The notes beneath the pieces are model-generated. The model did not search any database. It was not told where the DNA came from and was given only the letters and a program-made list of their open reading frames with translations. From positions 1-40,351 of the IMG/VR virus record IMGVR_UViG_3300031839_001818: a stretch of 40,351 nucleotides of DNA; one strand, written 5' to 3'. The position numbers and the translations under genes are program-made. Source of the DNA: a virus. Positions 141 to 34,295 of this stretch are shown here, in pieces. Numbering within the stretch: position 1 is the stretch's first letter; each line of letters opens with the position of its first letter.

Positions 141-163
141 GAATTTCGGCCATGCTTCGGGGC

Positions 164-823
164 ATGTGCTCCAACTACCGCCCACCTGGTGAACGTCAGC
201 TCCGTGATCGGGGCGTTCGTGCCTCTCGGCGGGAGCTGGGGTTTGAGGATTGTTGGCCCGGTGACCTAGCGCCGGTGATCACCAGCGCTGAACCTGGGGT
301 GGCTGTGATGGGGTGTTTCGGGCTTGTGCCGCCCTGGGCTGACATCACCAGCGCACGCCGATGCTACAACGCGCGGTCTGAGACCGTCGCCCAGCGCCCA
401 TCCTTTCGCCGCGCCTGGTCCCGTGGCCAGCTCGCCGTGATTCCGATGGTGGCCTTCTACGAGATGCATTACGGCGCGCCCGGCGTGGGTATCCGGCACC
501 GCATCGAGCGCCGGGATGGGGCGGTGTTCGGCGTTGCGGGGCTGTGGGAGCACCGCGAGGATGCCGGCGGGCCGGAGTGGTCGTTCACGCTGCTGACGAT
601 CGCGGCTGCTGGCCACCCGCTGATGGGGCGCATGCATGGGCCGGCGGACGAGAAGCGGAGCATCGTGATCCTCGATGCCGGCGCTTGGGGTGCCTGGCTT
701 GAGGCCAGGAGCGTCTCTGAGCGCTTGGCGCTGCTGAGGCTGTTTGATGCCGACCAGATGAGGGATGAGCCGGCACCACTGCCGCCTCGGAACGCGGACG
801 ACCGTCAGGGCTCGCTGCTGTAG
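164..823 (+). CDS. SRAP-family abasic-site DNA-protein crosslink protein (YedK/HMCES type)
   Basis: Proteins of this family cap abasic sites in single-stranded DNA by a covalent link through Cys2. The start is set at 164, not at the in-frame ATG at 152, because it places Cys at position 2 (MCSNYRPP), which the chemistry needs once Met is removed. Other family marks are FGLVPPWA near residue 52, NARSE at 69-73, the catalytic Glu of FYE at 100, GLWE near 126 and a His at 158. The usual RMP after that His reads GPA. The 219-aa length is normal. It is the first phage gene, runs opposite to its neighbours and stops 5 bp from the methylase stop. A role in protecting phage DNA during replication or repair is inference. 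Confidence 0.92.
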   Translation: MCSNYRPPGERQLRDRGVRASRRELGFEDCWPGDLAPVITSAEPGVAVMGCFGLVPPWADITSARRCYNARSETVAQRPSFRRAWSRGQLAVIPMVAFYEMHYGAPGVGIRHRIERRDGAVFGVAGLWEHREDAGGPEWSFTLLTIAAAGHPLMGRMHGPADEKRSIVILDAGAWGAWLEARSVSERLALLRLFDADQMRDEPAPLPPRNADDRQGSLL

Positions 824-828
824 GGGCG

Positions 829-1647
829 CTACCACTCGATCTGGGCCTGTTCGGTCAGTGACCTGGGCTCTGGCCACCCGTCGCGCCAGTTGCCGATGAT
901 CAGCTCTCGGCGCTCGACGCCCTCGCCGCCTCCCACCGTATAGGTGATCGGCACGCTGCGGAACGGTAGGTGGCCGAAGATCCTGCGCATTTCGGGGTGG
1001 TCATTGACGGTGATGATGATTGTGCCCGCCATGTTGTCGGCGGCGTCTGCAAGGGCTTGGTATTCCGCCAGGGGGAAGTCGACCCCGTAGCCTTCGGTCT
1101 CCCAGTACGGCGGATCTGCGAAGAACAGGCTGTGCGGCCGGTCATATCGCTGCAGGCAGGCATGCCAGGGCAGGTTCTCGATGGTGGTGTCGGCCAGCCG
1201 TTGCCAGGCGGCCGTGAGGTGTTGCTCCAGCCGCAGGATGCTGAAGCGGGCCGGGCCAGTGGTTGAGGTGCCGAAGGTCTGGCCGTCGACGCGCCCACCG
1301 AATGCCAGGCGCTGGAGATAGAAGAATCTCGCCGCGCGCTGGATGTCGGTCAGCGTGGCCGGCGCTTTCTGCTGCTCCCAGAGGTAGGTCTGGCGGCTGG
1401 TCAACGCCCACTCGAACTGCCGAACAAACTCAGCTAAATGGTGCTTCACGACACGGTAGAGGTTGATCAGCTCGCCATTGAGATCGTTCAGCACCTCGCA
1501 GTCACTGGGCGGCTTGGCGAAGTAAAGCGCAGCGGCGCCGGCGAACAGCTCGACGTAGCAGCTGTGATCGGGGAACAGGGGCAGGATCTGCGGTGCTAGG
1601 CGGCGCTTGCCGCCGATCCACGGAATAAGGGGTTGGGCTGGGGTCAT
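829..1647 (-). CDS. dam: D12-class DNA adenine methyltransferase (Dam-like)
   Basis: The enzyme should transfer a methyl group from S-adenosylmethionine to N6 of adenine. The 272-aa protein carries PWIGGKRRL at 9-17 and ELFAGAAAL near 33-41 (the AdoMet-binding FxG motif). DPPY at 178-181 is the catalytic motif of the MethyltransfD12 family. It lies at the promoter-distal end of the leftward late cluster, a place where Mu relatives carry DNA-modification genes such as mom. Protection of packaged DNA from host restriction is the likely purpose. Recognition of GATC is probable from the family but cannot be read from the sequence. A 131-bp gap containing a strong hairpin separates it from the next gene upstream. 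Confidence 0.93.
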   Translation of the reverse strand: MTPAQPLIPWIGGKRRLAPQILPLFPDHSCYVELFAGAAALYFAKPPSDCEVLNDLNGELINLYRVVKHHLAEFVRQFEWALTSRQTYLWEQQKAPATLTDIQRAARFFYLQRLAFGGRVDGQTFGTSTTGPARFSILRLEQHLTAAWQRLADTTIENLPWHACLQRYDRPHSLFFADPPYWETEGYGVDFPLAEYQALADAADNMAGTIIITVNDHPEMRRIFGHLPFRSVPITYTVGGGEGVERRELIIGNWRDGWPEPRSLTEQAQIEW

Positions 1648-32392: not shown

Positions 32393-32409
32393 TGCCGACA
32401 CTGTCGGCA
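32393..32409. promoter_or_regulatory. Dyad TGCCGAC-ACT-GTCGGCA at the head of the lysis/head operon
   Basis: A perfect 7-bp inverted repeat overlaps the first base of the lytic enzyme ATG. A TTGACC lies just upstream at 32387-32392, but no -10 box follows. The position suggests a binding site for the Mor-like activator or another late regulator. The 50 bases from 32359 otherwise hold no gene. Confidence 0.55.
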
Positions 32410-32930
32410 TGGACACCGGCATCCACATCATCCTCCGCCACGCGGCACGCAAGCACGGCGTGCCCGCAGCATTGGCTGTAGCCATTGCGGTCGTTGAGAG
32501 CCGCCTCAATGCGTGGGCGCACCGTGCGGAGCCGGCATATCGCTATCTGTGGGATGTGCGGCACAACGCACCATTCCGTCTCACGGGTGTCCAGGCTGCT
32601 GAGAAGCGACCACCGCCGGGCTTCCCTTCACCTGCTGGCATCTCTTCACTTTCCGAGTGGCAGGCCCAGCAGGCGAGTTGGGGCCTGATGCAGGTGATGG
32701 GCGCAGTTGCTCGCGAGTACGGGCTGCAAGGTCCGATTCCGCAGCTGCTGGACCCAACCCTCGGCGCCGACTACGGCTGCCGGCACCTGGCGGTGCTGCG
32801 CAAGCGGTTCCCATCTGCTGGCTGGCGCGGTGTCGCGCAGGCCTACAACTCCGGCAGCCCCAGTGCGGCGAACGGCTACCCCGACAAGGTGGCGGCGGCT
32901 GGCTATTCGTTTTCACAGGGAGGTGAGTGA
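32409..32930 (+). CDS. Lytic transglycosylase (SLT-type endolysin)
   Basis: The 173-aa protein has the soluble lytic transglycosylase layout: AVAIAVVESRLNAWAH with the catalytic Glu at position 30, then SWGLMQVMGAVAREYG (the GLMQ motif), and AYNSGS near the end. It cleaves the peptidoglycan glycan strand at lysis. There is no signal peptide, so release depends on the holin encoded next. No good ribosome site precedes the ATG, which lies in the dyad above. Confidence 0.9.
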   Translation: MDTGIHIILRHAARKHGVPAALAVAIAVVESRLNAWAHRAEPAYRYLWDVRHNAPFRLTGVQAAEKRPPPGFPSPAGISSLSEWQAQQASWGLMQVMGAVAREYGLQGPIPQLLDPTLGADYGCRHLAVLRKRFPSAGWRGVAQAYNSGSPSAANGYPDKVAAAGYSFSQGGE

Positions 32931-33163
32931 TGAAGCTACGGCTGCCGGAGCTGGTTGAGGACTGGCGCGATGCCTGGCGCTGGTTCAGCGTTCGGGCGAT
33001 GACGCTGGCGCTGGCACTGCAGGGTGCGTGGGCGATGGTGCCGACCGACTTGCGTGCCCAGGTGCCCGAGCAGGCGGCGCTGATCCTCACGCTGCTGCTG
33101 CTGGTTGCTGGCATCGCCGGGCGTCTGGTCAAGCAACCGCCGCCGGCATCGGGGGCGCAGTAG
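32930..33163 (+). CDS. Holin
   Basis: The 77-aa protein begins KLRLPELVEDWRDAWRWFSV, then a hydrophobic stretch (AMTLALALQGAWAMV) and a second helix (AALILTLLLLVAGIAGRLV). This matches the small two-helix holins that follow the lytic enzyme in Mu/B3-like phages. It should permeabilise the inner membrane. ATG 32930 overlaps the enzyme stop (TGATG). Confidence 0.85.
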   Translation: MKLRLPELVEDWRDAWRWFSVRAMTLALALQGAWAMVPTDLRAQVPEQAALILTLLLLVAGIAGRLVKQPPPASGAQ

Positions 33164-33165
33164 TG

Positions 33166-33267
33166 ATGCGAATGCTCATGCTGATTGCGGCGATGGCGAT
33201 CATGGGCGTGTGCCTGCAGATCGTCGGTGTGTTCGACCGCCCGGCTCAGACCGAGGTGTCGGCGTGA
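33166..33267 (+). CDS. 33-residue single-pass membrane peptide in the lysis cassette
   Basis: This short frame encodes MRMLMLIAAMAIMGVCLQIV and then a polar tail (GVFDRPAQTEVSA). It starts 3 bases after the holin stop and its TGA overlaps the start of the next gene as GTGA, so the coupling pattern supports it as real. Its single membrane helix and position suggest an antiholin or auxiliary holin; this is inference. Confidence 0.65.
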   Translation: MRMLMLIAAMAIMGVCLQIVGVFDRPAQTEVSA

Positions 33268-33563
33268 TCTCGCGGATCCGCAATGCAATGGCATGGGTGG
33301 GGGCTGCGGCGCTGGCGCTGTTCTGGCTGCTCATCTACGCCCGCAGTCGCTCCGTCGAAGCCAAGGCAACGGCGCGAGCTGATGCTGCCGATGCGCGCAA
33401 TGACCTCGATGCGGCTGATCGTCACATTGCAACGGCAGTGGATGCTGCGGCGCGGGCGGAAGAGATCGGGCTCAAGTTCGAGCGCCAGGCGCAGGTCGCG
33501 AAAGCCGCTGGGACGCCGGCAGCCGCAGACGTGCTGGAGAGGCTGAACCGCCATGCGAAATAG
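33264..33563 (+). CDS. i-spanin-like protein (Rz type)
   Basis: The 99-aa product starts at GTG 33264. It has one N-terminal membrane helix (WVGAAALALFWLLIYA) and a long charged coiled coil rich in Ala, Asp, Arg and Glu, the usual shape of an inner-membrane spanin. Spanins join inner and outer membranes at the last step of lysis in Gram-negative hosts. It overlaps the lipoprotein gene at 33553 by 11 bp, as Rz and Rz1 often do. Confidence 0.75.
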   Translation: MISRIRNAMAWVGAAALALFWLLIYARSRSVEAKATARADAADARNDLDAADRHIATAVDAAARAEEIGLKFERQAQVAKAAGTPAAADVLERLNRHAK

Positions 33564-33963
33564 CCTGGTCATTCTCGCTTCTCTGGCGTTGGCAGCCTGT
33601 GCGTCAACTTCAGGCGCGCCCCCTGCGCGAGTGCCGGTTTCGGTTCCGGCGCCGATCTCGGTACCGGCTCCGCCTCGCGCGACGTTGGTGGCCACTGATG
33701 CCGCGCCGCTGCTCTGCTACTCGGTACCTGCTGGTGAGCAGCTGGCGGACACGATAGACGCTGCGATGGCGCTCAATGCGCAGGCGCCGGAGATCCACGC
33801 CGCTGCAGTTGCTCTAGATGCCGAAGCGGGCCGCCTGGCAGCAGCCCTGCAGGCGACCGAGGCTGCACGCGAGGCGGAGGCTGCGGGATTGCGCTGGCAG
33901 TTGTGGAGTTGGCGCATCGGCGTTGGCCTGGGCGGCGTGCTGCTGCTGGGGGTGGCGCTGTGA
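33553..33963 (+). CDS. Outer-membrane spanin / u-spanin-like lipoprotein
   Basis: The 136-aa protein has a lipoprotein signal ending LAAC (C16), a Pro/Val-rich stretch (residues 24-42) as in Rz1, and a helical middle. It also has a hydrophobic C-terminus (IGVGLGGVLLLGVAL) that looks like a membrane anchor. An N-terminal lipid plus C-terminal helix is the plan of a unimolecular spanin, which spans both membranes by itself. Beside a separate i-spanin-like gene this is unusual. Alternatively the C-terminal stretch is only a hydrophobic end of an o-spanin. Confidence 0.78.
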   Translation: MRNSLVILASLALAACASTSGAPPARVPVSVPAPISVPAPPRATLVATDAAPLLCYSVPAGEQLADTIDAAMALNAQAPEIHAAAVALDAEAGRLAAALQATEAAREAEAAGLRWQLWSWRIGVGLGGVLLLGVAL

Positions 33964-34295
33964 CGGTGCAGGTGGAGCTGTGGCAGTTGATGGGGTTCCT
34001 GGTCGCACTGGTGGCGGCCATCGTTGGTGCGGTGTGGAAGATGGGCAGCCTGCTGATCGCGCAGATCGACAAGCGCATTGAGGAGCGCTCGCTGTCGCAG
34101 AGCAATGCCATTGCCAATCTGCATGCGCTGGCCAACAAGACGGACCGGGACCTGCTGTTGCTGCGGGCGGAGCTGCCGAATCAGTACGTGCTGCGCGAGG
34201 ACTGGATCCGCTTCAGCGGGACCATCGACAAGAAGCTGGACGGTGTGCACCAACGGCTGGACACCCTGAACGAGAAGATCCATGCACGAACTTGA
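33960..34295 (+). CDS. Membrane coiled-coil protein, Mu gp25-like (DUF2730)
   Basis: The 111-aa protein starts at GTG 33960 (GTGA overlap). It has one membrane helix (LMGFLVALVAAIVGAVWKMG) and then a coiled coil with TDRDLLLLRAELPNQYVLRED, the DUF2730 signature ('LP..Yv.r.d'). Proteins of this family lie between lysis and terminase genes in Mu relatives. The role is unknown. Confidence 0.82.
   Translation: MTVQVELWQLMGFLVALVAAIVGAVWKMGSLLIAQIDKRIEERSLSQSNAIANLHALANKTDRDLLLLRAELPNQYVLREDWIRFSGTIDKKLDGVHQRLDTLNEKIHART

Follow-up and report, generated by a model that had tools for sequence, protein, structure and literature searches.

The window analysed here, the 40,351 nucleotides of IMG/VR virus record IMGVR_UViG_3300031839_001818, belongs to a Mu-like phage, as shown by a Mu transposase C-terminal domain, a Mu portal and a Mu gp27-like terminase small subunit. 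The lysis cassette lies on the plus strand and begins with an endolysin of the lytic transglycosylase type with an SLT domain (32409..32930, Pfam PF01464, E 1.1e-10), followed by a holin (32930..33163) that matches DUF7940 (Pfam PF25612, E 6.5e-22) and the PHROG holin family phrog_1356 (E 6.7e-21). Further downstream are the gene for a 99-residue i-spanin-like protein (33264..33563), with a GTG start at 33264 overlapping the preceding stop, and that for a lipoprotein of 136 residues running from the ATG at 33553 to the stop at 33963. The two genes overlap by 11 bases (33553-33563), and the earlier note, which described an i-spanin-like gene and an overlapping lipoprotein gene as a lysis cassette, is correct in placing both here. 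The lipoprotein gene of an o-spanin lies within the i-spanin gene or overlaps or follows it, and in the Mu-like phage it overlaps. The order SLT endolysin, holin, i-spanin-like protein and lipoprotein counts in favour of a spanin role. The cassette is bounded by a gp25-like gene (33960..34295, plus strand; phrog_462, E 3.3e-18) with its GTG start at 33960 overlapping the lipoprotein stop. The phrog_462 family carries the label "lipoprotein", yet the gp25-like protein has an N-terminal hydrophobic segment without a lipobox and the label looks wrong for this gene. The holin gene is followed by a 33-residue hydrophobic ORF (33166..33267, plus strand) with no Pfam match and a weak PHROG match. Its last 4 bases are shared with the start of the i-spanin-like gene, and it may encode an antiholin or an accessory holin.

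The 99-residue protein has a single N-terminal TMD formed by residues 8-27, with a dG of -1.91 as calculated with the DGpred formula and parameters, for which T1 gp11 (-4.24) and TMDs of the Rz type were the only checks. A second TMD is absent, and the remainder is a predicted helical, Cys-free part that would lie in the periplasm, so that on its sequence the protein has the N-terminal TMD and periplasmic helical domain by which an i-spanin is recognised. Searches of Pfam, PHROG and other databases give no convincing family match, and no close relatives were found among the phage genomes searched.

The lipoprotein has the lipobox LAAC with the cysteine at C16 (codon 33598..33600, plus strand) and an alanine at the +2 position, an N-terminal signal predicted to direct it to the outer membrane as in u-spanins. 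Beyond C16 there is one more cysteine, C55, then a Pro-rich stretch and a helix. In the AlphaFold2 model, built on a 15-row alignment, a signal helix is followed by a pair of short strands around C55, and residues 78-135 form one helix, with pLDDT values of about 87-93 across residues 81-136. The last 15 residues are uncharged with a mean Kyte-Doolittle value of 2.39, which only 32 in 20000 shuffled versions of the mature lipoprotein attain, and the best tail segment, residues 117-136 (33901..33960, plus strand), has a dG of -0.72 and forms a helix continuous with the coil. The lipobox at C16 and the C-terminal hydrophobic helix that had been noted from the sequence are therefore both recovered. 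In a weaker test the same dG is reached anywhere in the protein by 3.1% of 1000 shuffles; alanine is abundant in the mature lipoprotein, so the chance of a hydrophobic segment at some point along it is not especially low, and composition alone explains it in part.

The surroundings of related genes were collected using the neighbouring gp26-like gene as anchor, giving 69 loci from named genomes and, out of 451 in IMG/VR, the best 80. Together with earlier loci, 158 contain the anchor, several of which are the same contig twice and one of which (L001) is the Mu-like phage itself. A lipobox scan yields 96 candidates in 83 of the 158 loci, the 75 loci with no candidate being uninformative. Within the 83 loci with candidates, a hydrophobic-ended lipoprotein at the spanin position is found only in the Mu-like phage itself; most of the other lipoproteins look like ordinary Rz1-type o-spanins, and the i-spanins are often longer. 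Five other proteins exceed the hydrophobicity limit and appear by eye to be multi-TM and holin-like, lacking a convincing lipobox. The closest gp26 relative (L079, 3578-5002) has a 180-residue ORF and a membrane protein with no lipobox candidate before gp25, and may be spanin-less or built on another plan. Close relatives of the Mu-like lipoprotein are absent among phages searched by tblastn, viral contigs and genome contigs. A prophage search of 398 genomes from the order of genome G001 gives two weak matches to the profile, covering the front of the model only. The single-protein search of the same genomes gives weak matches in 48 of the 398, mostly partial and in long or unrelated frames, which were judged compositional; one of these (G326) was dismissed after inspection of its sequence.

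A second set of 92 loci was reached through relatives of the holin and endolysin and contains 28 lipobox candidates in 23 loci; it partly repeats the gp26 loci, holds five fewer loci than were fetched and may include overlapping contigs. Septimatrevirus cassettes, reached via the holin, have ordinary Rz/Rz1-type genes. The lipoproteins of loci L199 and L238 have hydrophobic ends with no overlapping N-anchored coiled-coil gene upstream, and in L217 and L244 a hydrophobic stretch is present but not at the protein end. Locus L236, from a different IMG/VR phage, has a 94-residue N-anchored coiled-coil protein overlapped by a 151-residue lipoprotein with a hydrophobic tail. The coiled-coil protein matches a PHROG of Rz-like spanins (E 3.7e-6), and the lipoprotein has no periplasmic cysteine.

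The L236 lipoprotein leads to Erwinia phage pEa_SNUABM_5 gp076 and through it to 57 GenBank jumbo phage records, with Erwinia (48), Dickeya (8) and Yersinia (1) as hosts. The jumbo lipoprotein (phrog_23384, with phrog_35764 as its partner) is annotated as a lipoprotein, membrane protein or hypothetical protein and never as a spanin. A gene encoding about 93-104 residues lies directly upstream of it in all nine annotated jumbo records opened, and all 20 jumbo IMG/VR loci have an N-anchored gene of 92-104 residues sharing a 4-base overlap with the lipoprotein start. The hydrophobic tail is likewise present on the lipoprotein in 20/20 of these loci, periplasmic cysteines are absent from both proteins in all 20 pairs, and hydrophobic residues occupy the last 11 positions in 15 of 15 aligned sequences. 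The AlphaFold2 model of the Yoloswag lipoprotein has one helix, residues 68-157, running into the tail. Purifying selection acts on both genes, omega being 0.04-0.23 in the lipoprotein and 0.08-0.41 in the partner (each finite in 8 of 10 jumbo pairs). In the jumbo phages opened with annotation (L264-L283) a membrane protein of ~100-138 residues, holin-like by eye, precedes the pair.

No endolysin is recognised beside the jumbo pair, and Pfam, PHROG and other database searches match the Mu-like lipoprotein to no family of tested function. Both observations would suit a lipoprotein that does not act in lysis, for example a surface-exclusion lipoprotein with an incidental position in the cassette, which we consider very improbable given that the gene sits between the holin/endolysin genes and the head genes, where relatives have Rz/Rz1-type genes, and that an i-spanin-like partner accompanies the lipoprotein in three different phage types. 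Dickeya phage PDS1 is 98.5% identical to JA11, which carries the jumbo lipoprotein, and the lysis genes published for PDS1, in the part of PMC12886445 covered, consist of "Endolysin" only.

The Mu-like lipoprotein and pEa_SNUABM_5 gp076 align with a BLASTP E of 4e-6 as a single comparison, and against the jumbo profile hhalign gives a probability of 80 (E 1.4e-5), compared with about 1 for the controls, an Ala-rich lipoprotein and T1 gp11. In a ranking of 92 lipoproteins by similarity to the jumbo family, the Mu-like lipoprotein is first and that of L236 second with a mean z of 5.9 each, the next being 4.1 and the median 1.05. The third-ranked sequence (L099, mean z 4.1) is a tail-less, otherwise ordinary o-spanin candidate located 1230 bases upstream of gp26, and could mark a tail-less relative of the jumbo lipoproteins. 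Shuffles that preserve the composition of signal, middle and tail separately (300 each, nine jumbo members) never reach the full-length score against the Mu-like lipoprotein for eight of the nine members, and reach it in 4/300 for JA29. The similarity is strongest at the front and in the tail pattern (LW..RI, then a Gly/Ala/Leu run). Taken by itself, the middle shows weak similarity, its score being reached by 0-22 of 300 shuffles for eight of nine jumbo members and by 147/300 for Yoloswag, and for fHe-Yen9-02 the tail alone is without similarity to the Mu-like tail. The L236 lipoprotein matches the jumbo family with an E of 7e-9, while its direct comparison with the Mu-like lipoprotein gives no alignment. 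Sequence similarity is absent between the Mu-like and jumbo i-spanin-like partners. Taken on these comparisons, the Mu-like, L236 and jumbo lipoproteins are probably of common ancestry, the partner gene having diverged or been exchanged.

We propose, with a probability of roughly 0.5, that the pair represents a third spanin layout in which an i-spanin and a tail-bearing o-spanin reaching the inner membrane form one module that disrupts the outer membrane as the last step of lysis. The behaviour of the tail is central to this reading. Ordinary o-spanin candidates from related loci (59 distinct sequences, after removal of identical and very short sequences and, by eye, of L112, L118, L132, L136 and L006 as not o-spanin-like) have a median dG of +5.77 with none below +2.57, far above the -0.72 of the Mu-like segment. 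Predicted values are -0.0 to 0.91 for the tails of the jumbo relatives and 0.99 for that of L236. Topology prediction, which the earlier note had put forward as one check on its claim, is thus favourable for the Mu-like tail, whereas the tails of the relatives are short and marginal. An ordinary two-component spanin whose tail is a surface motif, docking onto the partner or acting in the manner of a fusion peptide and not crossing the inner membrane, seems to us the less likely reading but has to be taken seriously, and several features fit it. The tails are short and Gly/Ala-rich, those of the jumbo phages having a conserved Arg and then 11-13 uncharged residues, and no positive residues follow them in the Mu-like lipoprotein or its relatives; their likeness to a fusion peptide is our assumption. 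The single periplasmic cysteine of the Mu-like lipoprotein is also usual for two-component systems, 507 of 528 of which have one in the part of PMC6139136 consulted. The low dG of the Mu-like segment compared with the 59 candidates argues for an anchor instead, as does the position of the tail at the end of one continuous predicted helix of sufficient length.

The lipobox and C-terminal helix in one protein follow the u-spanin plan, and T1 gp11 likewise combines an N-terminal lipobox with a C-terminal hydrophobic segment. A complete one-protein spanin acting alone, with the upstream 99-residue gene as an antiholin, holin accessory or remnant, would account for this plan, and the lack of periplasmic cysteines in the jumbo and L236 lipoproteins agrees with u-spanins, 0 of 58 of which have one according to the same part of PMC6139136. 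It is nevertheless improbable, since all 20 jumbo loci retain the upstream gene, always with the 4-base overlap and under purifying selection, and the lipoprotein, helical and not beta by prediction, has no similarity to T1 gp11. T1 further differs in having no i-spanin-like partner, with the endolysin gene directly upstream, and in its strong TMD (dG -4.24), which is followed by a positive tail. The periplasmic part of the T1 family is reported to be beta-rich (PMC6139136, in the passages covered), and the AlphaFold2 model of the Mu-like lipoprotein has two short strands and is otherwise helix. A u-spanin has no i-spanin partner, and an overlapping i-spanin-like gene is present here and in all 20 jumbo loci; it has no periplasmic cysteine, and the Mu-like lipoprotein has C55, with none in the jumbo and L236 relatives. 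The PB1 u-spanin was not located within the stretch examined for it.

As in the Rz/Rz1 and P2 LysB/LysC types, the lysis cassette ends with the gene of an N-anchored coiled-coil protein and, overlapping it downstream, that of a lipoprotein. The arrangement differs from these types in the tail, the 59 ordinary o-spanin candidates having no second membrane segment (dG at least +2.57). C55 supplies the one or more periplasmic cysteines expected of a two-component pair, which are missing from the 20 jumbo pairs, and the predicted C-terminal hydrophobic segment of the Mu-like lipoprotein may depart from anchorage in the outer membrane only. The phrog_23384 and phrog_35764 pair shares the two-gene plan, a lipoprotein similar over its length and the same kind of tail, but its lipoproteins lack periplasmic cysteines, its tails are shorter and its partner is not recognisably related. 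Because several u-spanin features are lacking and one two-component feature is blurred, the Mu-like pair is filed as a variant and as a member of neither class.

The combined layout draws its direct support from the anatomy of the two proteins, the conservation of the pair, the purifying selection on both genes among the jumbo relatives and a predicted helix that continues into the tail. In the proposed mechanism the N-terminal TMD would anchor the 99-residue protein in the inner membrane in an N-in orientation, its coiled coil lying in the periplasm. The lipoprotein would be lipidated at C16 and sorted to the outer membrane, as expected from the alanine at +2, a position occupied by Ser, Gly or Asn in the relatives and never by Asp. 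From there the Pro-rich linker would lead into the long helix, whose uncharged end would enter the inner membrane, next to the partner or in one bundle with it. Removal of the peptidoglycan by the endolysin would then allow the bundle to collapse and the membranes to fuse. With its tail in the inner membrane the lipoprotein alone would span the periplasm, the partner forming a second inner-membrane anchor, and the fact that the partner is strictly kept speaks for a need for both proteins. A third spanin class, a heteromer with three membrane attachments that consists of a bridging lipoprotein and an obligatory i-spanin and is common to Mu-like phages and many jumbo phages with no spanin recognised so far, is offered tentatively as something short of an even chance.

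The overlapping i-spanin-like gene, lipobox and helix plan had been taken as a possible intermediate between two-part and unimolecular spanins. The plan itself stands, and it is the intermediate status that finds less support: as the tail is kept in 20/20 jumbo loci, the layout would appear to be a stable one carried between phages and not an o-spanin caught gaining a tail, and on the sequences compared a conserved combined layout describes the pair better. Kongari et al. 2018 (PMC6139136), in the passages covered, suggest that u-spanins may stem from an o-spanin gaining a C-terminal TMD and call this origin speculative, given the lack of resemblance between any u-spanin and any o-spanin. A tailed lipoprotein still paired with an i-spanin makes the idea directly testable. 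If the proposed layout is right, the o-spanin and u-spanin plans are combinable in one working system, and the pair offers a spanin candidate for jumbo phages of plant-pathogenic bacteria, where it was hitherto unrecognised. A description of the combined layout was not met with in searches of the open-access PMC literature or in the passages covered from PMC7760394, PMC5295617, PMC7830690, PMC8705779, PMC12886445 and PMC6143709.

At the end of the phage a SRAP-domain protein (152-823, plus strand; PF02586, E 2.4e-25) is encoded beside a D12-class adenine methyltransferase (829-1647, minus strand; PF02086, E 4.4e-25), and an SOS-response peptidase of the SRAP type is noteworthy as phage cargo.
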